From Methylomarinovum tepidoasis (GTDB lineage Bacteria > Pseudomonadota > Gammaproteobacteria > Methylococcales > Methylothermaceae), in NCBI RefSeq assembly GCF_030294985.1, contig NZ_AP024718.1:1255001-1319000 (forward strand): 64,000 nucleotides of DNA, read 5' to 3'. Below the pieces are notes generated by a model that was not told the DNA's origin, searched no databases, and saw nothing but the letters and a program-made list of their open reading frames with translations. Shown one piece after another: positions 24,384-42,438 of the stretch. A program made the position numbers and the translations under genes. The first letter of the stretch is position 1. Every line of letters begins with the position of its first letter.

Positions 24384-25592
24384 TCAGCTGCGGACCTGGT
24401 CGATCACCAGTTCGATGCGGGGATGGCCGGAAACCGCCACGGGATCGCTTTGCCCCTCCAGGTCGCCGGGAGCCCCCTGGGCGTTGCCGGATTTGGCCAC
24501 CCGGGCGCCGACGATCACCTTCGGGAAGTGCGACAGTTTCAGCTGCGGCATCATCGCCATCGAGTCGTCCAGGGTGACGGTGAGCGGCAAGTCTTTGACC
24601 TGCTTGCGGACGATGGCCAACGGCATGGGCGGCCCGGAGGCGGCTTTGGCGAAGACGTAGACCGGATCGTCGGGTTTGGCCCGGGCGGCCAGTTCAGGGG
24701 AAAGGCGCACTGTCACCTGGACCGAAGCGCCGTCGGCCGCCGGTTGCGGCGCGGTGGACTGCGGCACCTGCAGCCCGGCCTTTTGCATCATCGTCGTCAA
24801 CTGGCGATACGGTTTGCTGCCGGGAGGCATTTGTGCCAGCAGCTGGTTCCAATACCGCTGGGCGCTGTCGCGGTCACCGTCGTGGAGGGCGGCCATGCCG
24901 GCCAGCCACAGGGCGTAGGGGTGATCCGGCCGGGTTTCGAGGACCTTACGGACGATGGCCAGCGGTTCGCCGCTCAGGTCTCCCCCTTTGGACTGGGCCA
25001 GGGCTTCGGCGTAGCGGACTTCCAGATCGGGGTCGTCCGGCGCCAGTTGCAACGCCTTGCGGTAGGCGTCCAAGGCCTTGTCGATCCGGCCGGTGGCCTG
25101 GTAGGAGCGGGCCAGCAGCACCCAGCCTTCCAGATCGTTCGGATTGTCCTGGAGGCGACGTTCGATCTTGGCGATCGCCTCTTCCAGCGAAGGGGGGGCG
25201 TTCTTCTGTGCCTGGGGTGTGGTGCGAGGATTGAGCAGATCCGGGCGGCCGAGGCTGAAATACAGCATCATCGCCGCCAGGGGGATCAGACCCAGCGCCA
25301 GGAACAGCGGCACAATGCCCTGGTAGGGCGGGCGGGTTTCCCCGCCGTCGCGCTTTGCGCTCAGATCGAGGAGATCACGGTCCAGTTCCGCCAGCAGCTG
25401 TTCGTACTGAGCCTGGTCGATCTTGCCTTCGGCCCGTTCCTGTTCCAGTTCCCGCCGCCGCTGGCGGTGGGCGGCCAGGTTGGCCTGAAGGTCGATTCGC
25501 GTGTCCAGGCGCGGCGGGCGGCGCAGGGTCCACCAGAACAGCAGGTAGGCCGCCAGAATCAGCGCGGCGGCGATGAGCCAGAAGACGATCAT
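24384..25592 (-). CDS. ccmI: Cytochrome c biogenesis protein CcmI (TPR)
   Basis: A 402-residue apocytochrome chaperone at the inner membrane. Two N-terminal transmembrane segments (about 2-22 and 95-112) flank a cytoplasmic loop with a coiled-coil-like EQERAEGKIDQAQYEQLLAE. The periplasmic part carries tetratricopeptide repeats (LEGWVLLARSYQATGRIDKALDAY) and a C-terminal beta-rich domain (VQVTVRLSPELAARA) as in NrfG/CcmH-type fused proteins. The ATG at 25592 overlaps the ccmH stop (ATGA). CcmI binds apocytochrome C-termini and delivers them to CcmF/H. It ends the ccmCDEFGHI operon. Confidence 0.92.
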   Translation of the reverse strand: MIVFWLIAAALILAAYLLFWWTLRRPPRLDTRIDLQANLAAHRQRRRELEQERAEGKIDQAQYEQLLAELDRDLLDLSAKRDGGETRPPYQGIVPLFLALGLIPLAAMMLYFSLGRPDLLNPRTTPQAQKNAPPSLEEAIAKIERRLQDNPNDLEGWVLLARSYQATGRIDKALDAYRKALQLAPDDPDLEVRYAEALAQSKGGDLSGEPLAIVRKVLETRPDHPYALWLAGMAALHDGDRDSAQRYWNQLLAQMPPGSKPYRQLTTMMQKAGLQVPQSTAPQPAADGASVQVTVRLSPELAARAKPDDPVYVFAKAASGPPMPLAIVRKQVKDLPLTVTLDDSMAMMPQLKLSHFPKVIVGARVAKSGNAQGAPGDLEGQSDPVAVSGHPRIELVIDQVRS

Positions 25593-26050
25593 GAGGATTT
25601 TTCCTCGTCCTTGAGCAATCGTTGCAGGCGTTCCCGTTCGGCGGGGGTCAGGGCCGTCGGCGCTTCGGGGCGGCGGGTCCGGCCGATGCGCCACAGCAGC
25701 AGGCCGCCTGCGGCCAGGGCGGCGAAGGGGCCGAACCAGAGCAGGGCGGTGGTCTTTTTCACCGGCGGCTTGTAGAGCACGAAATCGCCGTAGCGCTGCA
25801 CCAGGAAATCGACGATCTCGGCATCGCTCTTGCCCGCCAGCAGCATGGCATAGACCTCGGATCGCAGGTCTTCGGCCAGATCGGCGTTGGAGTCGGCCAG
25901 GGACTGGTTCTGGCACACCAGACAGCGCAACTGTTCGATCAGGTTCTGGTAGCGGCTTTCCAGGGCCGGATTGGGAAACTGGCGCACTTCGATGCCGGCC
26001 AGTGCCGGCAGGGCCAGCGTCAACCACAGGGCGGCGATCAGGGCTTTCAT
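25589..26050 (-). CDS. ccmH: Cytochrome c maturation thiol-reductase CcmH
   Basis: A 153-residue membrane-tethered protein with a signal peptide (MKALIAALWLTLALPALAG), the redox motif LRCLVCQNQSLADSNAD and one later transmembrane helix (LLWFGPFAALAAGGLLLW). It reduces the apocytochrome CxxCH disulfide before heme ligation. This is the short CcmH form; the TPR part is the separate ccmI downstream. The start ATG at 26050 overlaps the ccmG stop by four bases. Confidence 0.95.
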   Translation of the reverse strand: MKALIAALWLTLALPALAGIEVRQFPNPALESRYQNLIEQLRCLVCQNQSLADSNADLAEDLRSEVYAMLLAGKSDAEIVDFLVQRYGDFVLYKPPVKKTTALLWFGPFAALAAGGLLLWRIGRTRRPEAPTALTPAERERLQRLLKDEEKSS

Positions 26051-26574
26051 GACTGTTTCTCCAAATAGGCCACCAGCGGCCCCAGTTTCTCCTCCCAGTC
26101 CCTGGGGGTGATGGGGCCGATGTGCTTGTAGCGGATGACGCCCTGCTTGTCGATGACGAAGGTTTCCGGGACGCCGTAGACGCCCCAGTCGATGGCCACC
26201 TTGCCGGCGGCGTCGAAGGCGACGGCTTGGTACGGGTTTCCCAGGCGTTCGATCCACTGCAGACCGGCCTCGCGGGTGTCCTTGTAGTCGAGACCGTAGA
26301 TCGTCACCCCCTGGCGGGCCAGCTGCATCAAGAAGGCGTGCTCCTGGCGGCAGGCCACGCACCACGAGGCCCAGACGTTGAACAGGCTGACCTTGCCTTG
26401 GAACCGGGCGCTGTCGAAGCTCGCCTGGGGATCGTCGAGACGGGGCAGGTTGAACTGCGGCGCCGGTTTGCCGATCAGGGGGGAGGGGACCTCCCGGGGA
26501 TTGAGGGTCAGGCCGACCCCCAGCAGAATCAGCAGGCCGACGAACAGTCCCAGGGGCAACAGATACTTGAGCAT
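26047..26574 (-). CDS. ccmG: Thiol:disulfide interchange protein CcmG (DsbE)
   Basis: A 175-residue membrane-anchored thioredoxin-fold protein. An N-terminal helix (YLLPLGLFVGLLILLGVGL) is followed by the thioredoxin domain with active site ASWCVACRQEH and the family motif YGVPETFVIDKQG with its cis-Pro. It keeps CcmH and apocytochromes reduced in the periplasm. It lies two bases downstream of ccmF and overlaps ccmH. Confidence 0.95.
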   Translation of the reverse strand: MLKYLLPLGLFVGLLILLGVGLTLNPREVPSPLIGKPAPQFNLPRLDDPQASFDSARFQGKVSLFNVWASWCVACRQEHAFLMQLARQGVTIYGLDYKDTREAGLQWIERLGNPYQAVAFDAAGKVAIDWGVYGVPETFVIDKQGVIRYKHIGPITPRDWEEKLGPLVAYLEKQS

Positions 26575-26576
26575 GG

Positions 26577-28541
26577 CTAAACCGTGGCGTTGACGGCGGC
26601 GGTGGTCTGGGCGGTCACCTTGACGCTGCGGTAACGGCGGTCGGCCGCCGCCAGCAGGCCGCCGGCCATCATCAGCAGGCCGCCGAGCCAGATCCAGCGC
26701 ACCGCCGGCTTGACATACAGGCGCACGCTCCAGGCGTCTCCTTCCAGCGGTTCGCCCAGGGCGACGTAGAGATCACGGCGCAGGTCCGGATCGATGGCGG
26801 CCTCGGTCATGACGTTGCGCTGCACCCGGTAGAAGCGTTTCTGGGGGGTGAGGCGGGCGATCCGTTCCCCGTCCCGGAAAACCTCGAAGATGCCTTCGTC
26901 GGCGCCGTAGTTGGGACCGTCGAACGCCCGTATCCCTTTGAAAGTGAAACGGTATCCCCCCAGCTCGGCGGTTTCCCCCGGCGTCAGGCGCACGGTGCGT
27001 TCGATGCTGTAGTGGTTGGAAATGCCGACGCCGATCAGAAACACCGCCAGGCCGAAGTGGGCCAGAGTCATGCCGTAGAAGCCGGCAGGCTGGCGCAACC
27101 CCCGCAGCCCCTTACGGTGACGCAGCCGCTGCCACAGGGGCAGCAGCGAAGTGGTACCGAGCCAGAAGGCGGTGGCGAGGAAGGCGAGGGTGACGATGTC
27201 CTTGGGATCGAACCACAGGGCACTGACGACGATGGCCGCGGTCAGAGTGGCCGGGATCAGCCAGCGCACCTGCCGCCACAGCTTCGCCGGGTCTCCCTGG
27301 CGCCAGGCCACCAGGGGGCCGATGCCGGCGAGCAGGAACAGCGGTGCGGTCACCGGCGTGAACACGCTGCTGAAATAGGGGGGGCCGACGGAAATCTTGC
27401 CCAGCCCCAGGGCGTCGAGCACCAGAGGGTAGAGGGTGCCCAGCAAGACGCTGGCGGCGGCCACCACCAGCAGCACGTTGTTGACCAGCAGCAGGGCTTC
27501 GCGCGAGAACCAGTGGAAGCGGGCGTGGTCCTTCACCGCCGGGGCCCTGAGGGCGTAAAGCAGCAGGGAGCTGCCGATCACCAGCCCCAGGAACACCAGG
27601 ATGAACAGGCCGCGTTCGGGATCGTTGGCGAAGGCGTGCACCGACACCAGCACCCCGGAGCGTACCAGGAACATCCCCAGGAGGCTCAGGGAAAAGGCGA
27701 AAATCGCTAGCAATACGGTCCAGGATTTGAAGGCTCCACGTTTTTCCGTCACCGCCAGGGAATGGATCAGGGCGGTGGCCATGAGCCAGGGCATGAAGGA
27801 GGCGTTCTCCACCGGATCCCAGAACCACCAGCCGCCCCAGCCCAGCTCGTAGTAGGCCCACCACGAGCCCAGGGTGATGCCCAGGGTCAGGAAGGCCCAG
27901 GCCACCAGGGTCCAGGGGCGGGACCAGCGGGCCCAAGCGATGTCCAGGGAGCCGGACAGCAGGGCGGCGATGGCGAAGGCGAACGGCACCGCCAGGCCGA
28001 CGTAGCCCATATACAGCATCGGCGGGTGGACAGCGAGGCCGAAGTCCTGCAGCAGCGGGTTGAGGTCGTTGCCGTCGAGGGGTGCCGGGGTCAGCCGTTC
28101 GAAAGGGTTGGAGGTGAACAGGATGAAGGCGAGGATGCCGACGCTGATCAGTCCCAGGACGCCGAGAACCCGGGCCACGAACAGATCCGACAGGCCGCGG
28201 TTGAAAATGCTGACCGCGAAGGTCCACAGCCCCAGAATCAGGGCCCACAGCAGCACCGAGCCCTCGTGAGCGCCCCAGGCGGCGGCGATGCGGTAGAACA
28301 GAGGCAGGGCGGAGTTGGAATGCTCGGCCACGTAGCGGACCGAGAAGTCGTTGACCACGAAGCTCTGCACCAGACAATAGAACGACACCGCCAAAAACAG
28401 CGCCTGGGCGCGGGCGGCCGGTTTGGCCACCGCCACCCAGGCCGGCAGCCGCAGGGCGGTGCCGGCGAGGGGGAAGGTCGCCTGCACCACGGCCATCAGC
28501 AAGGCGAAGATCAAGGCCAGCTGGCCCAGTTCCGCAGTCAT
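26577..28541 (-). CDS. ccmF: Heme lyase CcmF
   Basis: A 654-residue polytopic inner-membrane protein, the core of the System I heme ligation complex. About fifteen hydrophobic segments are visible. The WWD domain GWGGWWFWDPVENASFMPWL (near residue 235) and the neighbouring histidines are the family signature, as are VHPPMLYMGYVG and the C-terminal periplasmic loop. It attaches heme from CcmE to apocytochromes. The start overlaps the ccmE stop by four bases. Confidence 0.96.
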   Translation of the reverse strand: MTAELGQLALIFALLMAVVQATFPLAGTALRLPAWVAVAKPAARAQALFLAVSFYCLVQSFVVNDFSVRYVAEHSNSALPLFYRIAAAWGAHEGSVLLWALILGLWTFAVSIFNRGLSDLFVARVLGVLGLISVGILAFILFTSNPFERLTPAPLDGNDLNPLLQDFGLAVHPPMLYMGYVGLAVPFAFAIAALLSGSLDIAWARWSRPWTLVAWAFLTLGITLGSWWAYYELGWGGWWFWDPVENASFMPWLMATALIHSLAVTEKRGAFKSWTVLLAIFAFSLSLLGMFLVRSGVLVSVHAFANDPERGLFILVFLGLVIGSSLLLYALRAPAVKDHARFHWFSREALLLVNNVLLVVAAASVLLGTLYPLVLDALGLGKISVGPPYFSSVFTPVTAPLFLLAGIGPLVAWRQGDPAKLWRQVRWLIPATLTAAIVVSALWFDPKDIVTLAFLATAFWLGTTSLLPLWQRLRHRKGLRGLRQPAGFYGMTLAHFGLAVFLIGVGISNHYSIERTVRLTPGETAELGGYRFTFKGIRAFDGPNYGADEGIFEVFRDGERIARLTPQKRFYRVQRNVMTEAAIDPDLRRDLYVALGEPLEGDAWSVRLYVKPAVRWIWLGGLLMMAGGLLAAADRRYRSVKVTAQTTAAVNATV

Positions 28542-28999
28542 CGGCTCGTTCCCTCGAAATCGTCCACCGGCGGCAGCTTGCCGGATTTCTTCAGGGCATC
28601 GGCCACTTCCGGCGGCATGTAATTCTCATCATGCTTGGCCAGCACCTGGGTGGCCTTGAACAGGCCGTCTTGCTGCAGTTGGCCGATGGCGATGATGCCC
28701 TGGCCCTCGCGGAACAGGTCCGGCAGGATGCCCTCGTAGAACACCGTCACCTCGGCGGCGCCGTCGGTGAGGGTGAAGCGCACCGCCAGGCTGTCCGGGT
28801 CGCGGTGGACGCTGCCCTCCTTCACCAGGCCGCCGACCCGGAAGGCGTAGTTCGTCGGCGCCTCGCCGGCGGCGATCTGCGAGGGGGTGTAGAAGTAGAG
28901 CAGGTTCTTCTGAAACGCTGCAAGGGCCAGGAAGGTGGCGATGCTGACGCCGAGCACGATGACCGTGACCCAGAGCATGCGGCGCTGGCGCGGGGTCAT
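28538..28999 (-). CDS. ccmE: Heme chaperone CcmE
   Basis: A 153-residue periplasmic heme carrier anchored by an N-terminal helix (MLWVTVIVLGVSIATFLALA). The beta-barrel domain has FRVGGLVKEGSVHRD and VTVFYEGILPDLFREGQG. Heme is bound covalently through the His in LAKHDENYMPPE. Its stop and start overlap ccmF and ccmD by four bases each. Confidence 0.95.
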   Translation of the reverse strand: MTPRQRRMLWVTVIVLGVSIATFLALAAFQKNLLYFYTPSQIAAGEAPTNYAFRVGGLVKEGSVHRDPDSLAVRFTLTDGAAEVTVFYEGILPDLFREGQGIIAIGQLQQDGLFKATQVLAKHDENYMPPEVADALKKSGKLPPVDDFEGTSR

Positions 29000-29163
29000 C
29001 GGCCGGTCTCCTGGTCGTACCAGCGCCGAAGCCGCGCCAGCACCTCCCGGCGGCGGCGCAAAGGAACGATCAGGTTCCAGATCAGCACCACGGCGGTCAG
29101 GGCGTAGGCGCTCCAGACGTAGGCGCCGTAACCGCCCATGTGGATGAATTCCTGCCAGGTCAT
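28996..29163 (-). CDS. ccmD: Heme exporter accessory protein CcmD
   Basis: A 55-residue single-span membrane protein starting MTWQEFIHMGGYGAYVWSAY, the typical CcmD opening, followed by a helix (ALTAVVLIWNLIVPL) and a basic cytoplasmic tail. It bridges CcmC and CcmE during heme loading. ATG at 29163 overlaps the ccmC stop (ATGA). The gene is too short to stand out by length but the position and sequence leave little doubt. Confidence 0.92.
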   Translation of the reverse strand: MTWQEFIHMGGYGAYVWSAYALTAVVLIWNLIVPLRRRREVLARLRRWYDQETGR

Positions 29164-29936
29164 GAGGCGATCTCCTCGGAATCGGATACCGGTTCGATTC
29201 GTTCGCGCGCTAGCAGTTCCCGCACCCAGCGGCTGCGGCGCTCGCGCCAGAGGATTTCGCTGCGGGCTCGCAGCAGCAGCACGGTGAAGAAATACAGCTG
29301 GAAAGCGAAGGCCATCAGCAAAAGCGGCCACAGCATGCTAGGGTGGATCGCCGGCTTGTCGAAGCGGGTCACCGTCGGCCCCTGGTGCAGGGTGTTCCAC
29401 CATTCCACCGAGTAATGGATGATCGGGATGTTGACGCTGCCGACGATGGCCAGGATCGCCCCGGCGCGGGCGGCGGTGCGCGGATCCTCGATGGCGCTCT
29501 GGAGGGCGATGTAGCCCAGATACAGGAACAGCAGGATCAGCTCAGAGGTCAGTCGCGCGTCCCACACCCACCAGGTGCCCCACATGGGCTTGCCCCAGAT
29601 GGAACCGGTGGCCAGTGCCAGAAAGGTGAAGGACGCACCGACGGGGGCCGAGCACACCGCCATCACGTCGGCCATCTTCATGTTCCAGATCAGCCCGATG
29701 CCCCCGGCCACCGCCATGAAGACGTAGATGAACAGCGACAGCCACGCTGCCGGTACGTGCACGTACATGATGCGGAAGCTGTCGCCCTGCTGGTAGTCGG
29801 GCGGGGCGACCCACAGCCCCAGATACAGGCCGGCCGCCATGCAAAGGAGCGTGGCCCCGCCGAGCCAGGGAATCCAACGGCCGGTCAGATGATAGAAATG
29901 CCGGGGGGAGGCGAGTCGGTGCAGAAAGGCCCACAT
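29160..29936 (-). CDS. ccmC: Heme exporter protein CcmC
   Basis: A 258-residue membrane protein with six helices that loads heme onto CcmE. The WWD motif is in GTWWVWDARLTSELILLFLY, flanked by the heme-ligand histidines in YVHVPAAWLS and IIHYSVEWWNTLHQ. It is the first gene of the ccmCDEFGHI operon. In most genomes ccmA and ccmB precede it, but here the upstream neighbour is an unrelated cupredoxin gene. A candidate extended -10 promoter lies within 40 bases upstream. Confidence 0.95.
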   Translation of the reverse strand: MWAFLHRLASPRHFYHLTGRWIPWLGGATLLCMAAGLYLGLWVAPPDYQQGDSFRIMYVHVPAAWLSLFIYVFMAVAGGIGLIWNMKMADVMAVCSAPVGASFTFLALATGSIWGKPMWGTWWVWDARLTSELILLFLYLGYIALQSAIEDPRTAARAGAILAIVGSVNIPIIHYSVEWWNTLHQGPTVTRFDKPAIHPSMLWPLLLMAFAFQLYFFTVLLLRARSEILWRERRSRWVRELLARERIEPVSDSEEIAS

Positions 29937-30009: not shown

Positions 30010-30777
30010 TCAATCTTCCGCCAGACTCCGGAGTATCCAGCGCCCGGCCCACACCAGCAGGATGCCGCCGGCCAATGCCAGCGCGAGGAAGACGATGCGC
30101 CCGCCGGTCCAGCGGGTGGGATAACGGTCCGGGCGGACCGGTTTGGTCAGCCCCGGCAGGCTGGCCAGGTCGCGGTCGCCGCCGGCCACTTTGATCTGGG
30201 CCTTCATGCCGTGTTCGGTGTGCTGGGCGATGTCGCAGTGGACCAGATAGGTCTTTTTGTAGGGCGGCAGAATGAAACTGGCGGTTTCTTCGCCGGGACC
30301 GGAGACCTCGATGGTGAACATGCCCATGGGGTAGAGGTCCTGCGGCAGGCCGTGGACCATGAACTGGTGGCGGATGTTGTCTTCGTTGACGAAGCGCACG
30401 GTGAGGCGGGCGCAGGGTGGCACCTCCCAGCTCTGCCGGTCGTAGGCGAACACCAGCCCGGAGAACTTTTTGGCGTATTTGCGCCCGGCGTGGACGGTGA
30501 TCTTGACGTCCTCGGAGATCTGGGCACAGCCCTGGGGCAGGCGGGTCGGGTTCTCGTTCATCACCATGCTGTCCATGTCCATGCGGTGGCCGGCATGGGC
30601 CGGGCCGGTGAGGGAGAACAGGAGAAGCAAGACGACGGCAAGGCTGGGCAAGGCGGGGCCGTTCGCAGGGTGTACCCGGCCTGGACGGCCGGGTTTCAAG
30701 CCTCCAGGGATGGATTCACGGCGTCCCGGAGAACGGCCCCGCCTTGCCCACCCACGGCATTGCAATACCTGGATCAT
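30010..30777 (-). CDS. Membrane-anchored cupredoxin
   Basis: A 255-residue copper protein predicted to face the periplasm. After an unusually long N-terminal region (residues 1-45) comes the signal-peptide core AVVLLLLFSLTGPAHA. The cupredoxin domain follows, with type 1 copper ligands in RHQFMVHG (near 135) and VHCDIAQHTEHGM (near 180-192). One C-terminal helix (IVFLALALAGGILLVWAG) anchors it. ATG at 30777 is chosen because GGAGGAAAG precedes it and it overlaps the oxidase stop in ATGA. It could pass electrons to or from the neighbouring multicopper oxidase. The long basic, proline-rich stretch between Met and the signal core is encoded by an inserted palindromic repeat. Confidence 0.8.
   Translation of the reverse strand: MIQVLQCRGWARRGRSPGRRESIPGGLKPGRPGRVHPANGPALPSLAVVLLLLFSLTGPAHAGHRMDMDSMVMNENPTRLPQGCAQISEDVKITVHAGRKYAKKFSGLVFAYDRQSWEVPPCARLTVRFVNEDNIRHQFMVHGLPQDLYPMGMFTIEVSGPGEETASFILPPYKKTYLVHCDIAQHTEHGMKAQIKVAGGDRDLASLPGLTKPVRPDRYPTRWTGGRIVFLALALAGGILLVWAGRWILRSLAED
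30646..30749. repeat. 104-base palindromic repeat element with 19-base perfect inverted ends, inside the cupredoxin gene
   Basis: GGGCAAGGCGGGGCCGTTC (30646-30664) is the exact reverse complement of GAACGGCCCCGCCTTGCCC (30731-30749). Between them lie a smaller hairpin, CCCGGCC-TGGAC-GGCCGGG (30675-30693), and an imperfect one around GATGGATTCACGGCG. From memory, short elements with a GGATTCACGGCGTCCC-type core occur as dispersed palindromic repeats in gammaproteobacterial genomes; this identification is not verified. The element is read through in frame and codes for about 30 residues between the cupredoxin start codon and its signal-peptide core. Confidence 0.8.
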
Positions 30778-32429
30778 GACGCTTTCCTCCATTCCCGCCA
30801 AGCGAAGAAGGCCAATCCCAACGCCAGCCCCAGGCTCAGGCCCGCCAGCAGCACCCGCACCGGATCGGGCGGCAGGGGCGCCGGATCGCTGTAGATTTCC
30901 CAGTCCTTGCTGCGGGCCCAGACCGGCACCTGCTTCTGGTAGAACCAGCGGTTGAAGAACGGCACCAGATCCATGCCCTGCAGCTTGGGGAGACCGTTTT
31001 CGTCCAGGAAGCGGCGGTAGACGACGAGGCTGATGTCGCCGCCGGGGCCGACGCCATCGGAGGTGACGCTCTTTTCCGCATGGTCGTGCATCAGCCAGGC
31101 GCCCTGGCCGAAGCTGTGCAGGCCGTCGTCGTGGGTGTCGAGCACTAGGTCGAGGCGCTGGGCCGGGGCCAGATCCTGGACGTCGCGGGTGATCGGTCGT
31201 TTCAGGGGAACGCCATCGACGGCGACGGCGGTGGTTTTGTGGCCGTGGAGGTGCAGCCCCAGGGTGTGCGGGTGGCCGTTGACCACCCGCAGCAGCACTT
31301 GCTGATCCGGTTCCACCACGATCAGGCTGTCGCGCAGGGTGTAGGGAAAGGACCGGCCGTTGACCAGGAAGAAATCCTCGTCGGCGTCGGTGATGTCGTA
31401 ATCCCGGTTCATGGCCTTGGCCACCAGGCGCGGATCGTTGTATTGCTGGATGGGCCGGTAGCGTTCCTTGTCCAGCGTCTGGTAGTGGAGGTCGTATTCC
31501 TGGGCGTATTTTTTCCGCACCGCCTGCGAGGGATGGCGGACCTTGCCGGCGCCGACGTTGAAGGTCTGTAACCAGTTGTCCGGGCGGTTCTCCTCGACGA
31601 TGAACAGCCCCTGCAGCCCCATGAGCATGTGCTTGTCGGTCTGTACGTGGCAGTGGTAGAGCATGGTGCCGGGTTGGCGTGGCTGGATCTGATAAGTGCG
31701 GCGCTCGCCCGGCATCAGCATCTGCTCGCTGGTGATGGGGACGCCGTCGTTGCCCTCGCCGTTGGGTTTGAGGTAGGGATGATCGACGCCGTGCAGATGA
31801 ATGGTGTGGGGCAGATAATGGGTGTTCTCCAGGGTGAGATAGACGGTGTCGCCCTGTTCCACCCGGATCGGCGGCGAGGGGGCGCGCAGCAGGGGGGTGG
31901 CGTCGAGGTTGACGGCATCGACGGTGGCCATGCCGCGCATCTTGGGCACGAACACCCAGATGCCCGGGGTCAGGCCCGGGGCGATGCGGTAGCCGGGGAT
32001 GAGGAAGTCGCCGTCGGGGGTGCTGCCGTTCAGTTCCCCCACCTCCAGGTGGATGTGGATGACGTCGGGGTCGCCGTCACCGTCGCGGTCGTTTTCCTTC
32101 ACCACCGCATCGGCTGCCAGACGGGTCTTCATCAGGGTGGGCATGGTGACGTTGTTGGTGCCTTTGACCACGCTGGCGATCAGGTAGGGGTTGTCCGGCT
32201 TACACTGGGGGTCCTCGTCGATCTCGACGTCTTCGATGGTCTGGGCCTGGCGCCATTCGGGATGGGTGAAACTGCAAAGTGGTTCGGTCTCGGAGATCGA
32301 GGGCACCCATTTCATCGTCGGCGGCGCTTCGAGACCGGCCTGGGTGGCGTTGCCGGGAAACAGCAGCCAGGCCGCTCCCAGGCTCAGCACGATACCGAGG
32401 AGATAGGCGGACAGACGCAGAGGCTTCAT
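30774..32429 (-). CDS. Membrane-anchored multicopper oxidase
   Basis: A 551-residue multicopper oxidase predicted to act in the periplasm. An N-terminal signal/anchor (AYLLGIVLSLGAAWLLF) and a C-terminal helix (LLAGLSLGLALGLAFFAW) bracket the copper domains. Copper motifs are HTIHLHG (near 210), LYHCHVQTDKHMLMG (near 257), LGLHLHGH (near 390) and WLMHDHAE (near 446). The Cys-His electron path (HCH with following His and Met) is in the first copper domain, whereas the last motif has HDH, so the layout differs from classic laccases. An insert with DRDGDGDPD suggests calcium binding. It overlaps fchA and the cupredoxin gene by ATGA at both ends. The substrate is unknown. Confidence 0.85.
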   Translation of the reverse strand: MKPLRLSAYLLGIVLSLGAAWLLFPGNATQAGLEAPPTMKWVPSISETEPLCSFTHPEWRQAQTIEDVEIDEDPQCKPDNPYLIASVVKGTNNVTMPTLMKTRLAADAVVKENDRDGDGDPDVIHIHLEVGELNGSTPDGDFLIPGYRIAPGLTPGIWVFVPKMRGMATVDAVNLDATPLLRAPSPPIRVEQGDTVYLTLENTHYLPHTIHLHGVDHPYLKPNGEGNDGVPITSEQMLMPGERRTYQIQPRQPGTMLYHCHVQTDKHMLMGLQGLFIVEENRPDNWLQTFNVGAGKVRHPSQAVRKKYAQEYDLHYQTLDKERYRPIQQYNDPRLVAKAMNRDYDITDADEDFFLVNGRSFPYTLRDSLIVVEPDQQVLLRVVNGHPHTLGLHLHGHKTTAVAVDGVPLKRPITRDVQDLAPAQRLDLVLDTHDDGLHSFGQGAWLMHDHAEKSVTSDGVGPGGDISLVVYRRFLDENGLPKLQGMDLVPFFNRWFYQKQVPVWARSKDWEIYSDPAPLPPDPVRVLLAGLSLGLALGLAFFAWREWRKAS

Positions 32430-33037
32430 AGCTTGGCCAGAATGTGGTTGTACAGCTGCTCGACTTCCCGGTCCTTGCCGGCGAGCAGGGCTTCCAGTTC
32501 TTCGCGGCGCTCGGCCACGAAGGCCGGATCGCGGATGGCGTTGAGGTTGACGGTCACGTTGATGGCGCAGCTCTTGAGCGCCGCCTGGGCCGCCAGCACC
32601 CCGACGCCGGCATCGGACAGCACGTTGGGATTGCCTTTTGCCGCTGCCTCATGGCAGAGATCGATGACCGCCACACACAGCCGGGCGCAGGCGAGGGGCA
32701 CGTCGGTGGCGCCCTTGAGGGCGGCTTGGATCGCCTCGCTGCGGTTCGGATCGTCCTTGGGAAGACGGTAGGCGGCCATGACCCGGTCGAAGGCAGCCAC
32801 ATCCGCCTCGATGGCGGCCAGCAGCCGCTGGCGCAGTTCCGCGGCTTGTGCCTGCAGGGCCTGCATTTCGGCCTCCACCGCCCGATAGCGGGGCTTGCCC
32901 ACGGTGAGGCTGGCGACCATGCCGGCCAGCGCCGCGCCCATCGCTCCCATCACCGCCGCCGCGCTGCCGCCGCCGGGGGTGGGGTCGGCGCTGGCCAGCC
33001 GGTCGAGGAAAGTATCGAGGGATTGGTCTTTGAGCAT
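32426..33037 (-). CDS. fchA: Methenyltetrahydrofolate cyclohydrolase FchA
   Basis: A 203-residue protein of the cyclodeaminase/cyclohydrolase family (FTCD_C). The signature DPTPGGGSAAAVMGAMGAAL lies near residue 18, and a helical bundle follows, with ACARLCVAVIDLCHEAAAKGN and CAINVTVNLNAI. It interconverts methenyl- and formyl-tetrahydrofolate in methylotrophic C1 metabolism. mtdA is divergently transcribed only 77 bases away, the pairing known from methylotrophs, which supports FchA over a histidine-degradation cyclodeaminase. It is followed by the multicopper oxidase with an ATGA overlap. Confidence 0.9.
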   Translation of the reverse strand: MLKDQSLDTFLDRLASADPTPGGGSAAAVMGAMGAALAGMVASLTVGKPRYRAVEAEMQALQAQAAELRQRLLAAIEADVAAFDRVMAAYRLPKDDPNRSEAIQAALKGATDVPLACARLCVAVIDLCHEAAAKGNPNVLSDAGVGVLAAQAALKSCAINVTVNLNAIRDPAFVAERREELEALLAGKDREVEQLYNHILAKL

Positions 33038-33070
33038 GGTGGAACCCTGGTGGCGGAATCGGCCCGCTAT

Positions 33071-33076
33071 TATAAT
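33071..33076 (+). promoter_or_regulatory. Perfect -10 hexamer in the fchA/mtdA divergent region
   Basis: TATAAT at 33071-33076 lies 39 bases before the mtdA GTG. The overlapping ATTATAAT is nearly symmetric, so a TATAAT also reads towards fchA (33069-33074). No strong -35 was found on either side. A shared divergent promoter region is likely. Confidence 0.4.
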
Positions 33077-33114
33077 CGATCGATTGTTTTCTTAGGACTT
33101 CCAAGGTGTAGGCG

Positions 33115-33978
33115 GTGAAGAAACTCCTGTTCCAGTTCGATACCGACAGCCATCCGGCCTCTTTCGATACCGTGGTCGCCTACGATGGCGGCGCCGACCA
33201 CGTCATCGGTCATGCCAACCTGACGCCGGACAACGTGGGCCCTTTGGTGGACGGCACCATCTTCACCCGCGCCCCCAAGGACAAGAAGAACACCGCCATC
33301 TTCATCGGCGGCAGCGACCTCCAGGCCGGCGAGGCGCTGCTGGCGGCGGTCACGGCCCGGTTCTTCGCCAATTTCCGGGTGTCGGTGATGCTCGACAGCA
33401 ACGGCAGCAATACCACCGCGGCCGCCGGGGTGGCGCGGATCGTCGCCAGCACCGAGGTGCGGGGCAAGAAGGCGGTGGTGCTCGCCGGCACCGGCCCTGT
33501 CGGCCAGCGCGCCGCCGCTCTGCTGGCCAAGGAGGGGGCGCAGGTGGTGCTGACCTCGCGCTCCCTGGCACGGGCCCGGGCCGCCTGCGAGGCGATGAGG
33601 CGGCGTTTCGGGGTGGAGATCACCCCGGTGGAGGCCATCGACGCCGCCGCCCGTGCCGCCGTCATCGAAGACGCCCAGATCGTGTTCGCCACCGGCGCCG
33701 CCGGCGTTCGGCTGTTGGAGGAATTCCAGTGGCGGGATCTGTCCCGGCTGGAGGTTCTCGTCGACGCCAACGCCACCCCGCCTTTGGGCATCGAAGGGGT
33801 GGACATGATGGACCGCGGCACGGAACGCCACGGCAAGATCTGCTGGGGGGCCATCGGTTTCGGCGCCCTGAAACTAGCCGTGCACCGGGCCTGCATCGCC
33901 AAACTGTTCGAACGCAACGATCTGGTGCTGGACGCCGAGGAAATCTACGCCATCGCCAGAGAGATGGTGCATACGTAA
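33115..33978 (+). CDS. mtdA: NADP-dependent methylenetetrahydrofolate/methylenetetrahydromethanopterin dehydrogenase MtdA
   Basis: A 287-residue dehydrogenase of methylotrophs that oxidises methylene-H4F or methylene-H4MPT with NADP. The sequence follows Methylobacterium MtdA closely: KKLLFQFDTDSHPASFD at the start, VAYDGGADHVIGHANLTPDN, MLDSNGSNTTAAAGVA, the Rossmann motif VLAGTGPVGQRAAALLA, and LKLAVHRACIAKLFE near the end. The start is GTG at 33115 with AAGGTG upstream. Pairing with fchA favours MtdA over the H4MPT-only MtdB, though sequence alone does not exclude dual specificity. This is one of the best indicators that the host is a methylotroph. Confidence 0.93.
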   Translation: MKKLLFQFDTDSHPASFDTVVAYDGGADHVIGHANLTPDNVGPLVDGTIFTRAPKDKKNTAIFIGGSDLQAGEALLAAVTARFFANFRVSVMLDSNGSNTTAAAGVARIVASTEVRGKKAVVLAGTGPVGQRAAALLAKEGAQVVLTSRSLARARAACEAMRRRFGVEITPVEAIDAAARAAVIEDAQIVFATGAAGVRLLEEFQWRDLSRLEVLVDANATPPLGIEGVDMMDRGTERHGKICWGAIGFGALKLAVHRACIAKLFERNDLVLDAEEIYAIAREMVHT

Positions 33979-34125: not shown

Positions 34126-34293
34126 ATGAATCAGAAAACCCATCGTCATCATCAGGTCGTCATCATCGGTGGTGGTACCGCCAGGTGGCGGACCAGCTTA
34201 AATGTTAGGGTGAAAAATCTATTAGAAAAACCTGATTGCTGGCGTTATGATGAGACCTTCCATCTATCTGAAGAAATAAGGAGGACGCCATGA
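34126..34293 (+). pseudogene. Truncated N-terminus of a FAD/NAD(P)-dependent oxidoreductase
   Basis: The ATG at 34126 opens a 55-codon frame that starts MNQKTHRHHQVVIIGGGTAR. HQVVIIGGGTA is a classical dinucleotide-binding Rossmann start, as in sulfide:quinone reductase-like flavoproteins. Homology stops at codon 20, after which the frame reads into unrelated sequence and ends by overlapping the start of the monoheme cytochrome gene. An intact enzyme would need around 400 residues, so this is a remnant left by deletion or rearrangement. The exact parent family is uncertain because only about ten informative residues survive. Confidence 0.6.
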
Positions 34294-34589
34294 AGAAACT
34301 GATGACGATTGTGGCCCTGGCCGGGATCACCGCCACCGCCGGTGCAGCTGATGTCGCCGCCGGCAAGGCCAAGGCGGCTGCCTGCGGCGGCTGTCATGGG
34401 GCCGACGGCATCGCCACCAATCCGGCCTATCCCAATCTCGCCGGCCAGCACGCCCAGTATCTGGTGGCGGCGATGAAGGCCTACAAGACCGGTGCCCGCG
34501 ACCACGCGGTCATGAAAGCCATGGTGAGCAGTCTCTCCGACGAGGACATGGAAAACATCGCCGCCTACTACGAAAGCCTGAAAAAATAA
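34290..34589 (+). CDS. Monoheme class I cytochrome c
   Basis: A 99-residue periplasmic electron carrier. The signal peptide ([20 protein letters not shown]) is cleaved to a mature protein of about 80 residues, with one heme site CGGCHG (about 35-39) and a C-terminal Met ligand candidate in the [21 protein letters not shown] region. The size and motifs are those of small c551/c553 or single-domain c4-like cytochromes. GGAGG lies upstream of the ATG. It precedes the seven-heme cytochrome gene by 56 bases and is likely its electron partner, which is inferred from position. Confidence 0.93.
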
Positions 34590-34645: not shown

Positions 34646-37012
34646 ATGATTCGCCATTCTCTTTTGTGGGGCGTCCTGCTGCTCTCCGGCGTGGCGGCGG
34701 CCGCCACCGATCCCACCAAACCCAAGAACGACTACAACATCACCATCAATTACGAGCTGGGCATGCATTGCACCGGCTTCGACTTTTCCTACTGCTGCAT
34801 CCTGCCCCCCTACAACTCGATCCAGAGCCAGGTGGTCAAGACCGCCCGGGGGCCCCACGACAAGCCGAGGCTGCTCGGTGCCGATCCCAAGGATCCGATG
34901 ATCCTGGTGGACGGCGACAAGCGTTTCAAGCTCGAATACGGTCACGTGGACAACACCTACTCGGAAGGGGCCAAGCTGTACTACTGGACCGTTCCCTACG
35001 ACGTGGACGGCGACGGCAAGTACGAGGCCAACGAGAATGTCGCCAATGCCTACTGGCCTCATTTGTACGTTTACAAAGACCTGAAGGGTAGCAATCCCAA
35101 GCACACCAGCAAGGACAGCGAGAAGCAGCGGGTCGGTATCGAGATTCCGGTGCCGGTGGACAACGGTCCGGCAGGGGCGGTGGTGCCCAGTCCCTTGAAA
35201 GGCGGCCACCTGCACTATACCGGCGAGGAGGGAACCATCGTCTTCACCAAGTCGCCGGTGCTGGAGAACGTCCCCATCATGCTCACCCATCCCGGCATCT
35301 GGGACGCCCTGGGATTGCCGCTGACCCCGTTCTGGGACAGCACCGTCACCAAGAATCCTATCACCATCGTCGAGAGCGACATCCGCCCCTACCAGGAGGC
35401 TTGGGTGCGGATGGTGGACGCCGAGACCGGCGAGCCGGTGCTCGACAGCCACACGGGCAAGCCCATCGAATTCCACGGCACCAACCCCATCGACGTGCCC
35501 AACTGCTCCAACTGCCATTCCAACGAGAACGCCAACGGCGATCGCTACACGCTTTACAAGCGTGAGTTCGCCTTCTGGAAGGGGCTGGGGGCCAGCGACT
35601 ACATCGCCGGCCTCAAGGCCACCTCCATCTCCATCCTGCAGATCCACGACGCCAAGCACGGCACCAAGTTCACCGCCAACTACGATCCCGACAGCCGCTC
35701 GCTTTCCAACCGTCTCGGGCGCGACCCGGTGCTGTGCCAGAAATGCCACGCCGACAACGTCATCGGCGTGCTGGCGTCGAAAGGCGTGGTCGAGGCGCTG
35801 ACCGGTCAGCAGGTGCCCGGCGACGTGCGCATCCCGCCCCTGAGCGAAGCGCTGCACCGGGCCCACCAGACCGTCCGCCCGCTGCCCGACAGCCAGGGCC
35901 GCACCGGTACCTGCGCTGGCTGTCATCCGGCCCACCGCCAGGACGGTTCCCTGGACGGCTATCCCATCACCCCCGACGGCCGCAACCATTACGCCAACGC
36001 CGACAACCGCGACACCAAGGGCGGCTGTTTCGCCGGCCGCGACGTTCACTCCAACCCCGACAAGGACAAGGACGGCGTGGAAACCCCCGAGCACCTCAAC
36101 GCCATCGGCAAGTGGCTGCAGGCCAACGTCTCCAAGATCGGCAACGGCCAGCACGGCAAGGGGTTGTGGTGCACCAACTGCCACAACCAGCTGTCGCGGG
36201 AGCTGTACCAGCGTGACCACATCACTCACGCCTTCCGCCAGGAAGGGGAAACCCTGCGCAACAAGTCCCTGGAAGCCATCGCCCTGGCCATCGGCGTGAC
36301 CGAAAAGGAACTGATCGAGCGCTATCTCGATCCCAAGGTGATGCTGGACAAGAACGGTCACGATGACCCAGCAAAATCCGGCATCCTGCTCAACTGGGCC
36401 AAGGAACGCACCGAGGCCGACATCGCCGTAATCGCCATGCAGGGCGGCAAGCCCCTGATCCACAAGGACGAGGACGGCGATCCCAGCGTCACCATCCTGT
36501 CCGCCGATCCCATGGTCGATCCCGACACCCTCAAGCTGCCCAAGGGGGCCGACGACGCCATCGCCGTGCCTTACCGTGCCGCCGATCACGGACGCGACTA
36601 CTGGCTGGCGCCGGGCGAGCCCCACTGCGCCGATTGTCATGAGGCGCCTTACGTGGAAGGGCAGGGCGGCATCGCCTATCCCATCAACCAGCCGGGCAAG
36701 TACAGTCTGATGCGCTACTCCAAGGGCCATGCCGGGCTGGCGTGCCAGGCGTGCCACCAGTCGATCCACGGCTTGTATCCGGTGACGCCGCGGGTGGACA
36801 CCACCACCTACAAGCAGGCGCCCCAGTACAATCCGGACGGCAGCCACGGGCCGCTCAAATGCGCCGCCTGTCACGAAACCAACAGGTACGGCGTGCCGCT
36901 GATCGCCGAAGGCAAGACCTGGAAGGGCAAGAAGATCGACAAGGACTTCGATGCCGCGGTGACCTGGATGCACGCCAGCGCTCCCGATCTGGGCGGGCGC
37001 AATCCCCGTTGA
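34646..37012 (+). CDS. Exported seven-heme c-type cytochrome
   Basis: A 788-residue protein with a signal peptide (MIRHSLLWGVLLLSGVAAA) and seven CxxCH heme sites: CSNCH, CQKCH, CAGCH, CTNCH, CADCH, CQACH and CAACH. The hemes all lie after about residue 285. The first 285 residues have no heme and include a striking cysteine-rich block, LGMHCTGFDFSYCCILPPYN, plus a DVDGDGKYEANE segment that may bind calcium. Heme spacing is irregular, unlike small tetraheme or NrfA families, and I cannot assign a named family. GGAGG precedes the ATG. It would sit in the periplasm or at the cell surface and move electrons, possibly with the upstream monoheme cytochrome. The ccm operon nearby would mature it. 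Confidence 0.9.
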   Translation: MIRHSLLWGVLLLSGVAAAATDPTKPKNDYNITINYELGMHCTGFDFSYCCILPPYNSIQSQVVKTARGPHDKPRLLGADPKDPMILVDGDKRFKLEYGHVDNTYSEGAKLYYWTVPYDVDGDGKYEANENVANAYWPHLYVYKDLKGSNPKHTSKDSEKQRVGIEIPVPVDNGPAGAVVPSPLKGGHLHYTGEEGTIVFTKSPVLENVPIMLTHPGIWDALGLPLTPFWDSTVTKNPITIVESDIRPYQEAWVRMVDAETGEPVLDSHTGKPIEFHGTNPIDVPNCSNCHSNENANGDRYTLYKREFAFWKGLGASDYIAGLKATSISILQIHDAKHGTKFTANYDPDSRSLSNRLGRDPVLCQKCHADNVIGVLASKGVVEALTGQQVPGDVRIPPLSEALHRAHQTVRPLPDSQGRTGTCAGCHPAHRQDGSLDGYPITPDGRNHYANADNRDTKGGCFAGRDVHSNPDKDKDGVETPEHLNAIGKWLQANVSKIGNGQHGKGLWCTNCHNQLSRELYQRDHITHAFRQEGETLRNKSLEAIALAIGVTEKELIERYLDPKVMLDKNGHDDPAKSGILLNWAKERTEADIAVIAMQGGKPLIHKDEDGDPSVTILSADPMVDPDTLKLPKGADDAIAVPYRAADHGRDYWLAPGEPHCADCHEAPYVEGQGGIAYPINQPGKYSLMRYSKGHAGLACQACHQSIHGLYPVTPRVDTTTYKQAPQYNPDGSHGPLKCAACHETNRYGVPLIAEGKTWKGKKIDKDFDAAVTWMHASAPDLGGRNPR

Positions 37013-37050: not shown

Positions 37051-37064
37051 CCCGGAGAATGCCC

Positions 37065-38150
37065 ATGCGAACCCTGATTTTCGCCGCGTTGCTGGCAAGT
37101 ACGACGCTGCAGGCCAAGGTGCTGGTCACCGTCGACGGGACACCGGTCACTTCCGAGCAACTGGAACAGACCCTGCGCTCCTCACCCTTCGCCACCCAGT
37201 ATCCCGGCCTCGACGCCGACGAACAGGCCGTCCTGCGCCGCGATCTGTTGCAGCGCTTGGTGCAGGCGGAGGTGCTGTATCAGGAGGCCAGACGCCTGGG
37301 GTTGGAACAAGACGAAACCGTGCGTCGTGACGTGGCCGAATTCGAGACCGGCCTGCTGGCACAGAAATACCTGCAATACCTGCGCGACCGGATCGAAATC
37401 CCGGCGCCAAAACAGGCCGAATGGCGCCGCCGCCTGGGTACCGATCTCGACGCCCTAGCCGCGGTCCGTTCGGTTTACGTCGCCGACCGCTACCGTCAGG
37501 CCAAGGCCACGACTCTGGACCGGCTGCGGCAGCGGTACGGCGATCTGCCCGAAACCGAGCTTTTGGCCCGGGGCGCCAGGGAGGCGGGGATCGACGTTTC
37601 CGCCCAGGTGGCCGGCTTCCGGCGGGAACGCCTGATCCAGCGCCTCTTGGAACGGAAGGAAAAGGAATGGATTCCCGACCAGAGCGTGTTACGCGACTAC
37701 TACCAGCGTCATCCGGAAATCGGCCGGGTGCCGGAGCGGCGCCACGTCGGCCAGATCGTGGTGGCCGACCGCGATACGGCCTGGGCCCTGCGCCGCCGGA
37801 TTCTGCAAGGCGAGAGCCTGTTCCGGCTCGCCAAACAGTACAGCATCGACCCTTACGGCAGGCAACACGCCGGCGACATGGGTTGGTTGCCGGAAGGCAG
37901 CGCCATGCCCGCGATCGAAGCGGCGCTGGCCACCTTGAAGGATGGCGAGATCAGCGAGGTGATCGAAACCCCGAAGGGGTTCCATCTCGTCACCATCATC
38001 GAACGCAAGCCCGGTGAACAAAAGCCTTTCGCCGCCATCGGCGACCGGGTACGGCGGGCGTTGCTGCTGGAGCGGATGCCCGCTTGGCTGGCTGAAGTCA
38101 CGGCCCGCCACCGCATCGTCTGGACGGCAGCGGATCAGGCTTCCAGATAG
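37065..38150 (+). CDS. Periplasmic parvulin-type peptidyl-prolyl isomerase (PpiC/SurA-like)
   Basis: A 361-residue exported foldase. The signal peptide (MRTLIFAALLASTTLQA) precedes a SurA_N-like helical chaperone region (about 20-130) and a parvulin domain (about 215-325) with RRHVGQIVVADRDTAWALRR, GESLFRLAKQYSID, GDMGWLPEGSAMPAIEAAL and ETPKGFHLVTIIER. ATG at 37065 is chosen over 37059 because GGAG lies eight bases upstream. Its position after the seven-heme cytochrome suggests a role in cytochrome or outer-membrane protein folding, though a terminator separates the two. Its end overlaps the convergent permease gene by 16 bases. Confidence 0.87.
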   Translation: MRTLIFAALLASTTLQAKVLVTVDGTPVTSEQLEQTLRSSPFATQYPGLDADEQAVLRRDLLQRLVQAEVLYQEARRLGLEQDETVRRDVAEFETGLLAQKYLQYLRDRIEIPAPKQAEWRRRLGTDLDALAAVRSVYVADRYRQAKATTLDRLRQRYGDLPETELLARGAREAGIDVSAQVAGFRRERLIQRLLERKEKEWIPDQSVLRDYYQRHPEIGRVPERRHVGQIVVADRDTAWALRRRILQGESLFRLAKQYSIDPYGRQHAGDMGWLPEGSAMPAIEAALATLKDGEISEVIETPKGFHLVTIIERKPGEQKPFAAIGDRVRRALLLERMPAWLAEVTARHRIVWTAADQASR

Positions 38151-40293: not shown

Positions 40294-42438
40294 TCAGGCG
40301 CCATCGTCGTCCAGCAGGGTGTCGAGGATGGACCAGCGTTTGGTTGTTTCCTTGACGCCCTTGCCCAGAATCCAGCGGTCGTAGAGTTGCCGGGGAATGC
40401 CGAGCGTTTTCTCCAATGTCATCCAGGTGTCGAGGAAGGTGCGCCATTCCAAGTCTCCCCGGGGCAGGGCGAAGGCCACCGGCGTGGCGATGTGGGGTTC
40501 GGGAATCACCACCGCGTATTCGGGATGCAGCGTGGTCCAGGCGGATCCGGCTTCGGCGCTGATGATGAGTCCGTCCAAATCGCTACGCTGGAAGAACGTT
40601 TGGTTCGAAGGCAGTTTCACGATATGGGCCCCGGGGAGATATTCGGCCGCGGCGCTGGCTAGGGTTTTGCCGGAAATCCCTAGCCGCAGACCGGCATGGC
40701 TGATCGCTTCCCAGGTGTCGAAATCGTGGCGTCGGTAGTCGGGAAGCAGCACGCCGAGGGTGACGGTCATGTAGGGTGTGGAGAACAGCAGCTTGGGCAG
40801 CCGTGCCGGAGTCACGAGAAGGCCGCCGACCGCCAGATCGATCTGGCCATTGTGCAGTTGTGTGACTAGGGTTTTGTAAGTCCAGGGGACGAAGATCAGT
40901 TTCAGTTTCAGATCCTGGGCGAAGCGGTGGCAGAGGGCGATGTCGTAGCCTGCCAGCTCGCCTTGGTCGTTGAAGAAACTGAAAGGAAGCTGTCCCGGAT
41001 GATAACCTACCCGCAAGGTCCGGGTTCGCAGAATCCGTTGCAACCGTGACTGCTGCGGTGGCGGGGATTTGACGGCGGGAATGTGTTTCATGACCCGGGC
41101 CGGTGCTGGCGATTCGATCCTCAACTGCAGCAATGTGGTGGTCGTCTGCTGTTCGTGGGTCAACAATTCGGTCAGAAACAGGCGGACACCCAGGACGACA
41201 CCCCCCGTCACGACCGCCATCCCGACGATGAAATAGCCCAGTTTCCGCAAATCAAGACGCAGCATCCCGGTAGCGGCGGCCGTGGCCAGCAACGTGAAGG
41301 TGAAAAGATTCATGACCGCCAGCAGGGTGGCGAACCAGCCGTTGAGGATGCCGGTGACCAGGTAAAGTTGATACAGGTCCGCGGGGATTCGCATCTGATC
41401 GAGCAGGAACGGCAATGCCAGGTCGACGCCACCGAACAGAGTGAACAGTCCCAGCAATGAGAAGGCGGGGTACTGGGACAGGGCGATTTCGGTGCCGCTG
41501 AACCAGCCGGCGAACAGTACGAACAGCAGGGTAATCAGTTTGCCGATGTTGGGAAAATTGAATGACGTCGGGATCAGAACTTCGATGAAGCGTTCCTTGT
41601 CCTGGTCGAGGGAACCGTGACTCTGGAACAACGCCTTGGCCTGTTCGATCAGCATCGGCAGGACGATGAACAGATTGCCGGTGGCGAAACCGGTGATGAG
41701 GGAGGCGCGACAGGCGCGCAGGATGGCCCGGTAGGAAAACGGAGTCAGGAGGGCGGTCAGGCCCGGCAGGATCAGAAAGGTCAGCAGCAGCGAGGCGAGG
41801 ATGAAGACCGTCACATACACCTGGAGCCGGCCGAAATCGGCGAAAGACAAGGTGCCGGCGGCATTGGCGGCGATGGCGAAAATGCCGAAGGGGCTGAGCT
41901 GGATCACCATCATGGCGATCCGGGTCAGCGTCTTCTGGACGGTATCCAGAAGGTGCAGGAGAGAGTGTTTGTCCTCGATACCGATCAGGGCGATACCGAA
42001 GATCACGCTGAAAACCGCCGAGGCGGGCACGATGGTGCGGGCCAGGGAACGGAACGGGTTGACCGGAATGTAGAGATCGATGAAATCGACCTGGCGTTGT
42101 TCCACCATGCTGGGGCTGTAGAAAGTGCCGGCGGGCATATCCGGGAAGGCCAGGGGCATCACGTAGATGACCAGAAAGGCCAGGAGCCAGGAACCGAGCA
42201 GCACGATCCCGGCAGTCAGGGCCAGGCGCTTGGCCTTGGTGTAATCCAATCCGCCGATGCCGGCAATCAGCGAAACCACCATGTAAGGCAGGATGGACAT
42301 TTGCAGCAGGCCGATGTAGGCCCGCCCGATCAGGTTTAGCGGTGCGGCCCGCTCCCCTAGGAACAGACCGGTGACGATGCCCAGCAGCAAACCGATGAGG
42401 ATGCGCTGGGACAGGCTGGTGCGGTTGTCTTTTCCCAT
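40294..42438 (-). CDS. Fusion of a dicarboxylate/amino-acid:cation symporter (SDF family) with a family 3 solute-binding protein
   Basis: A 714-residue two-part protein. Residues about 10-430 form a GltP/DctA-like symporter with helices and the signature regions SFNFPNIGKL and LSQYPAFSLLG. A further helix (YFIVGMAVVTGGVVLGVRLFL) leads to a periplasmic domain, about 480-700, with the family 3 binding-protein blocks RTLRVGYHPGQLPFSFFNDQG, GYDIALCHRFAQDL, LHNGQIDLAVGGLLVTPAR and DGLIISAEAGSAW. Fusion of the two may couple capture and transport, or the binding domain may act as a sensor. The substrate is probably an amino acid or dicarboxylate. The gene stands alone, convergent with the lipoprotein gene. 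Confidence 0.88.
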   Translation of the reverse strand: MGKDNRTSLSQRILIGLLLGIVTGLFLGERAAPLNLIGRAYIGLLQMSILPYMVVSLIAGIGGLDYTKAKRLALTAGIVLLGSWLLAFLVIYVMPLAFPDMPAGTFYSPSMVEQRQVDFIDLYIPVNPFRSLARTIVPASAVFSVIFGIALIGIEDKHSLLHLLDTVQKTLTRIAMMVIQLSPFGIFAIAANAAGTLSFADFGRLQVYVTVFILASLLLTFLILPGLTALLTPFSYRAILRACRASLITGFATGNLFIVLPMLIEQAKALFQSHGSLDQDKERFIEVLIPTSFNFPNIGKLITLLFVLFAGWFSGTEIALSQYPAFSLLGLFTLFGGVDLALPFLLDQMRIPADLYQLYLVTGILNGWFATLLAVMNLFTFTLLATAAATGMLRLDLRKLGYFIVGMAVVTGGVVLGVRLFLTELLTHEQQTTTTLLQLRIESPAPARVMKHIPAVKSPPPQQSRLQRILRTRTLRVGYHPGQLPFSFFNDQGELAGYDIALCHRFAQDLKLKLIFVPWTYKTLVTQLHNGQIDLAVGGLLVTPARLPKLLFSTPYMTVTLGVLLPDYRRHDFDTWEAISHAGLRLGISGKTLASAAAEYLPGAHIVKLPSNQTFFQRSDLDGLIISAEAGSAWTTLHPEYAVVIPEPHIATPVAFALPRGDLEWRTFLDTWMTLEKTLGIPRQLYDRWILGKGVKETTKRWSILDTLLDDDGA

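Follow-up and report, generated by a model that had tools for sequence, protein, structure and literature searches.

The window analyzed here, a 64,000-nucleotide stretch of the Methylomarinovum tepidoasis genome, encodes an exported heptaheme cytochrome of 788 aa (MHC; 34646..37012, + strand) that belongs to an ancient and unnamed family. On balance we lean toward MHC being a periplasmic redox protein of the sulfide response, which would supply a terminal oxidase with electrons through small cytochromes c. We favor this reading because the family is conserved, its genes can lie in an operon with a ba3-type oxidase or near genes for flavocytochrome c sulfide dehydrogenase (FCSD) or an SQR-like protein, dsrA and soxB are enriched in genomes that encode it, and a probable member in Methylacidiphilum fumariolicum SolV is induced by H2S. 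The anatomy of the protein, the conservation and breadth of the family, its recurrent neighbors and the sulfur-gene enrichment are observed directly; the periplasmic location, the direction of electron flow, sulfide as the trigger and the chemistry of a Cys/His site are inferred.

A heptaheme cytochrome with an invariant Cys/His block

The MHC gene has a GGAGG-like ribosome site 5' of its ATG and encodes seven CxxCH motifs, at residues 287, 364, 423, 509, 661, 700 and 739, with none before residue 285. In 2000 composition-preserving shuffles of the protein, CxxCH occurred 0.0175 times on average and once at most, which indicates that seven motifs lie far above chance and bears out the original prediction that all seven are found past residue 285. 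The N-terminus, MIRHSLLWGVLLLSGVAAAA, looks like a Sec-type signal peptide without a lipobox, judged from its residues; a lipobox-like string is present in four seven-heme relatives, and nearly all seven-heme members have no lipobox. Next comes a heme-free, beta-rich domain (residues 24-284; 34715..35497, +), which AlphaFold2 modeled alone with a pLDDT of 81.4 and a pTM of 0.81, and then the heme domain that contains the seven CxxCH motifs (35504..36874, +). The model of the full protein (pLDDT 83.2, pTM 0.87) shows the heme region as mostly helix and coil.

Besides its heme-motif cysteines, the protein has four others: C42, C50, C51 and C461. The first three fall within the block YELGMHCTGFDFSYCCILPPYNSI (residues 36-59; 34751..34822, +), which also includes H41, contains LGMHCTGFDFSYCCILPPYN at residues 38-57, and is 98-100% conserved among 61 members from many phyla. 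The heme-free, cysteine-rich N-terminal block that had been predicted is thus a real conserved feature, with the near-invariant consensus YELGMHC[TV]GF[DE]xxYCC[VI][LI]PPYNSI. This block, seven CxxCH motifs and C461 (36026..36028, +), a cysteine of the heme region that is also invariant in more distant nine-heme cousins, define the family, and the window's MHC has all three. Over the 61 members, M40, H41, C42, C50 and C461 are invariant and C51 is conserved in 98%. Histidines 139, 334, 404, 407, 430, 468, 695 and 708 are likewise invariant, and the seven of these within the heme region (all except H139) could cap the seven hemes, which would leave H41, C42, C50, C51 and C461, together with H139, as a candidate non-heme site or as disulfides. 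AlphaFold confidence falls locally at residues 38-41 within the invariant motif, a feature of the model that would fit a candidate cofactor site. In our view, H41-C42...C50-C51 and C461 are not decoration but make up a putative functional site of the redox, metal or persulfide type.

The original prediction had also pointed to a calcium-like motif. DVDGDGKYEANE (residues 119-130; 35000..35035, +) does match a 12-residue loop of the EF-hand type, and alignments A1 and A3 indicate that it is subclade-specific, with the consensus DVNGDGK kept by most of the subclade that includes MHC. However, the loop has been lost from a paralogue (L033:12286-14556) in another genome of the genus, which indicates that it is not a defining feature.

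Searches against known families returned generic heme domains. In Pfam, MHC scored a few bits over the cut-offs for MtrC/MtrF domains II/IV (PF22113; 31.8 bits versus a cut-off of 30, a partial-domain match of a kind that heme spacing alone can produce) and cytochrome c7 (PF14522; 31.1 versus 24.8), and the same two models matched 57 and 61 members, respectively, of the 61-member alignment. NCBIfam gave no match above cut-off for MHC and no consistent family over the 61 members, with only one of them matching the OmcA/MtrC decaheme model TIGR03507 at E<=0.001. A PDB sequence search with the single protein found nothing significant, and a search with the 61-member profile found nothing convincing, its best stretches being short, single heme segments. 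Foldseek against the PDB returned no match at E<=0.001 for either the full model or the N-domain (residues 24-284), and tblastn of MHC against plasmids gave no match. The absence of a named multiheme family with this layout was therefore upheld, and the profile search that had been named as the refuting check assigned MHC to no characterized multiheme family.

Spread of the family and its gene neighborhoods

A match to MHC was found in 29 of the 101 genomes in our sample of relatives, including eight of the nine further congeneric genomes, and a scan of named genomes yielded at least 522 relatives. The best 80 of these come from Methylothermaceae, Methylococcaceae, Sedimenticola, Thiolapillus, Thiotrichaceae, Lamellibrachia symbionts, Sideroxydans and Sulfuricella, and further from Nitrospinota, Saprospiraceae, Persephonella, Sulfurovum, Sulfurimonas, Methylacidiphilaceae, Nitrospirae, Geobacteraceae and others. 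The family spans at least eight phyla, mainly bacteria exposed to sulfide, and most relatives belong to sulfur-oxidizing or vent lineages, which indicates that the predicted methylotroph setting was too narrow, as MHC is not specific to methylotrophs. Its presence in anaerobic lineages (Geobacteraceae and Smithellaceae) counts against the sulfide-response reading. Among complete members of standard length, almost every one has exactly seven hemes. A quick tree with long branches, whose split largely tracks phyla, separates a T subclade, which comprises the window's MHC and members from Pseudomonadota, Nitrospinota and Bacteroidota, from a V subclade of Aquificota, Campylobacterota, Verrucomicrobiota, Nitrospirota and Thermodesulfobacteriota.

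Variants of the protein were also seen. Long forms of about 1000-1340 aa with nine CxxCH motifs occur at L033:7435-10962, which features an extreme Asp/Glu/Gly-rich linker, and at L104, L109, L117, L127 and L128, and several of them have a parvulin or a second MHC as a partner. In the assembly of a Lamellibrachia barhami endosymbiont (L099:7836-9759), the MHC gene appears to be interrupted by a frameshift or stop, and the adjacent PPIC and TlpA-like genes are open.

Within the window, MHC is preceded by a gene for a monoheme class I cytochrome c of 99 aa with a signal peptide (34290..34589, +; PF00034, E=4e-10) and followed by a gene for a parvulin-type foldase with SurA_N and PPIC domains and a signal peptide (37059..38150, +; PF13145, E=3.9e-18; PF13624). 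Gaps of 56 bp and 46 bp, respectively, give the trio an operon-like arrangement. Both neighbors are as predicted, and the arrangement recurs in relatives. PPIC lies directly downstream of MHC in 27 of the 33 testable T subclade loci, and a cytochrome c lies directly upstream in 11/34. In Methylothermaceae relatives the upstream gene encodes a diheme c4-like cytochrome that is homologous in each half to the window's monoheme protein (48% and 37% identity to the two halves in locus L034), and the monoheme protein is likely the electron partner of MHC. A ba3-type COX1 gene was found within 3.5 kb upstream of MHC in 8/34 testable T subclade loci (11 loci in all), and a TlpA-like thioredoxin is encoded nearby in 13 loci. 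The usual order in methanotrophs is COX2-COX1-diheme cytochrome-MHC-PPIC(-TlpA), and some thiotrophs also have the oxidase and diheme genes upstream of the trio.

Several loci place genes linked to sulfide oxidation beside or near MHC. In a member of the Thiotrichaceae (L075) and another gammaproteobacterium (L077), MHC-PPIC-TlpA is followed by an FCSD flavoprotein gene, and L077 additionally encodes an FccA-like cytochrome and a NapC/NirT protein. Two further genomes (G002 and G007) have an SQR-like gene and cytochrome bd within about 7-8 kb of MHC. The window's own genome encodes, elsewhere, a ba3-type oxidase with 68% identity and an SQR-like homologue with 47% identity. Two results count against the sulfide-response reading. 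None of the PPIC, cytochrome or oxidase neighbors occurs at V subclade loci, including those of Aquificota, Campylobacterota and Methylacidiphilum. In addition, a close ba3 COX1 homologue is present in only 4/14 class genomes with MHC versus 2/32 without it, which leads us to reject strict genome-wide coupling of MHC to a ba3 oxidase and suggests that the link is local rather than universal.

Other gene arrangements were noted at these loci. Unlike the T subclade with its parvulin, Campylobacterota of the V subclade have a MORN_2-repeat protein adjoining MHC in seven loci (L105, L111, L118, L122, L123, L129 and L130). About 4 kb upstream of the window's trio lies a cytochrome c maturation operon (24384-29936, -) that encodes CcmC, CcmE, CcmF, a CcmG-like thioredoxin, CcmH and a TPR protein of the CycH/CcmI type. 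Genes for a multicopper oxidase-like protein of 551 aa and a cupredoxin-like membrane protein of 263 aa (30010-32429, -) overlap by a few bases and bear a weak copper-nitrite-reductase or copper-resistance resemblance. A C1-metabolism marker, fchA (methenyl-THF cyclohydrolase) head to head with methylene-H4MPT dehydrogenase (Mpt_N), occupies 32426-33978, and a second heptaheme locus in genome G009 has this gene pair at a distance of about 6 kb. Downstream, 40294-42438 (-) encodes 714 aa that by eye form an apparent fusion of a dicarboxylate/cation symporter-like membrane part and a periplasmic amino-acid-binding-like part, and this gene is conserved beside the trio in G009.

The sulfur link and a proposed electron path

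We compared sulfur genes in Gammaproteobacteria drawn evenly across the class. A dsrA gene, with oxidative and reductive types pooled, occurred in 12 of the 14 genomes with MHC versus 20 of the 65 without it (Fisher p = 2e-4 in a small sample, with kinship ignored). Similarly, soxB occurred in 10/14 versus 5/15 (p = 0.046, under the same limits of sample size and kinship). Neither soxB nor dsrA had a match in the window's genome, which counts against the sulfide-response reading.

In the methanotroph M. fumariolicum SolV, the 89-kDa heptaheme protein MFUM_v2_1950 is the product of the most H2S-induced gene (15.7-fold), a ba3 oxidase is up about 5-fold under H2S, and an electron shuttle was proposed for the protein (Schmitz et al., 2023; PMC10205796). 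Members of our family from Methylacidiphilaceae (L106, L119, L124 and L126) have seven hemes, measure 89-92 kDa and are sister to Hydrogenothermaceae. The homologue in Methylacidiphilum sp. Yel (L106), a single-copy protein of about 90-92 kDa with seven hemes, clusters with Hydrogenothermaceae and so is very probably the orthologue of the SolV protein. MFUM_v2_1950 is thus probably an MHC orthologue, a match made by description through L106 rather than by the SolV sequence.

In the path that we propose, sulfide or another reduced sulfur compound would be oxidized at MHC, or upstream by SQR or FCSD via quinol. Electrons would cross the seven MHC hemes to small cytochromes c of the class I or c4 type, here the product of 34290-34589, and from these reach a terminal oxidase, which where linked is of the ba3 type and probably sulfide-tolerant. 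The parvulin, joined in relatives by the TlpA-like thioredoxin, would aid folding and cysteine handling. MHC is possibly itself an enzyme. A stronger version, which we regard as doubtful, treats the family as periplasmic sulfur oxidoreductases of a new class, found in eight phyla or more. A Cys/His site of the N-domain (e.g., copper or persulfide) would then oxidize sulfide, polysulfide or thiol and pass the electrons to cytochrome c and an oxidase that tolerates sulfide, so that methanotrophs and thiotrophs would have a route for sulfide that needs neither SQR nor FCSD.

Methanotrophs live in the same sulfidic habitats as sulfur oxidizers, and the question is how they survive and use sulfide there. 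For one methanotroph, the gene known to respond most strongly to sulfide is that of a heptaheme protein, and the present results link what is probably the same family to a distinct operon of methanotrophs among the Gammaproteobacteria and of vent thiotrophs, with candidate key residues marked. If MHC is an enzyme, a so far unrecognized reaction of the sulfur cycle would be at work in eight or more phyla. We found no description of the family, its invariant Cys/His block, its phylum-wide spread or its oxidase/foldase/thioredoxin operon in the literature searched, and a search for "LGMHC" found nothing. Multiheme cytochromes as such are well known, and a probable member of this family has been published (PMC10205796), so that the predicted undescribed system is borne out only in part.

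Rival readings and comparison with known systems

The original prediction favored an electron-export or surface redox module, in which MHC would be an extracellular or outer-membrane electron-transfer cytochrome with a function akin to that of MtrC/OmcA or of the surface multihemes of methanotrophs. We consider this unlikely and less supported than a periplasmic sulfide response. The weak PF22113 match in 57/61 members would fit a surface role, as would the TIG or Big_2 domains of distant nine-heme cousins, which are typical of exported surface proteins, and the precedent of Methylococcus capsulatus Bath, which exports electrons through an outer-membrane cytochrome (PMC6281684). However, no porin or MtrA-type gene recurs beside MHC loci, the window's MHC and nearly all seven-heme members have no lipobox, and MHC falls outside the decaheme OmcA/MtrC family of NCBIfam. 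What recurs beside it instead is a terminal oxidase together with soluble small cytochromes, a foldase and a TlpA-like thioredoxin, joined at some loci by sulfide dehydrogenases. The Methylococcus MCA0421/c553O surface cytochromes and the Methylobacter porin-cytochrome EET cluster were set apart by their descriptions, as the papers describe different gene clusters.

The foldase raises the quite unlikely case that MHC is a sulfur (or nitrogen) oxyanion reductase like MccA/SirA, foldase-assisted and quinol-fed, with a cysteine-bound metal beside a heme. In mcc clusters a gene for a peptidyl-prolyl isomerase (parvulin) lies beside the MccA gene, and an isomerase gene is present in the MHC cluster as well. 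The invariant non-heme Cys and His, the NapC/NirT quinol dehydrogenase near MHC in L077 and the anaerobic lineages are also consistent with such a reductase. It is opposed by the seven CxxCH motifs without a long CX(n)CH site, by a profile that matches neither MccA nor any PDB multiheme enzyme, and by the methanotroph context, which supplies an oxidase rather than a reductase. We judge it improbable that MHC is a plain periplasmic carrier or wire (e.g., from bc1/ACIII to the oxidase) with no specific sulfur role here and with cysteines that serve as structural disulfides only. The seven conserved non-motif histidines could make all seven hemes bis-His, the four cysteines could form two disulfides, and the shuttle proposal for the Methylacidiphilum protein (PMC10205796) agrees with a carrier; yet the protein is large for that role, and strict conservation of the GMHC/YCC/PPYN block over at least eight phyla goes beyond what a carrier would be expected to show.

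Set against known systems, MHC resembles the outer-membrane decaheme proteins MtrC/OmcA in one weakly similar heme segment (PF22113) and in the order of a heme-free beta domain and a heme domain. It differs in having seven hemes rather than ten, a single N-terminal beta domain without a fold match, no lipobox, no MtrA/MtrB genes and a different cysteine pattern. The MccA/SirA copper-heme sulfite reductases are likewise multiheme and periplasmic, with an adjacent isomerase gene and conserved non-heme cysteines, but MHC has no CX15CH, has seven rather than eight hemes, and shows no detectable sequence or fold similarity in the profile and Foldseek searches of the PDB. The more distant nine-heme LGMHC cytochromes of other Methylococcales families (unnamed; L039-L050) share with MHC the LGMHC...ILPPYN block, the C461 equivalent and a seven-heme core, in which by eye their first seven hemes are those of the window's protein, although MAFFT misplaces their heme 5 in alignment A1. 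Unlike MHC, they carry two extra C-terminal hemes and often TIG or Big_2 domains, have no YCC cysteines, and are without parvulin or oxidase neighbors. MFUM_v2_1950 is of a type unlike the window's MHC in having no parvulin, cytochrome c or oxidase gene next door, and its description places it in the V subclade (about 40-46% identity, LGMHCVGF). Like the MHC family, it has seven hemes, about 89 kDa, a methanotroph host and a ba3 oxidase as probable partner, and its nearest relatives, as for L106, are thermophilic sulfide oxidizers.
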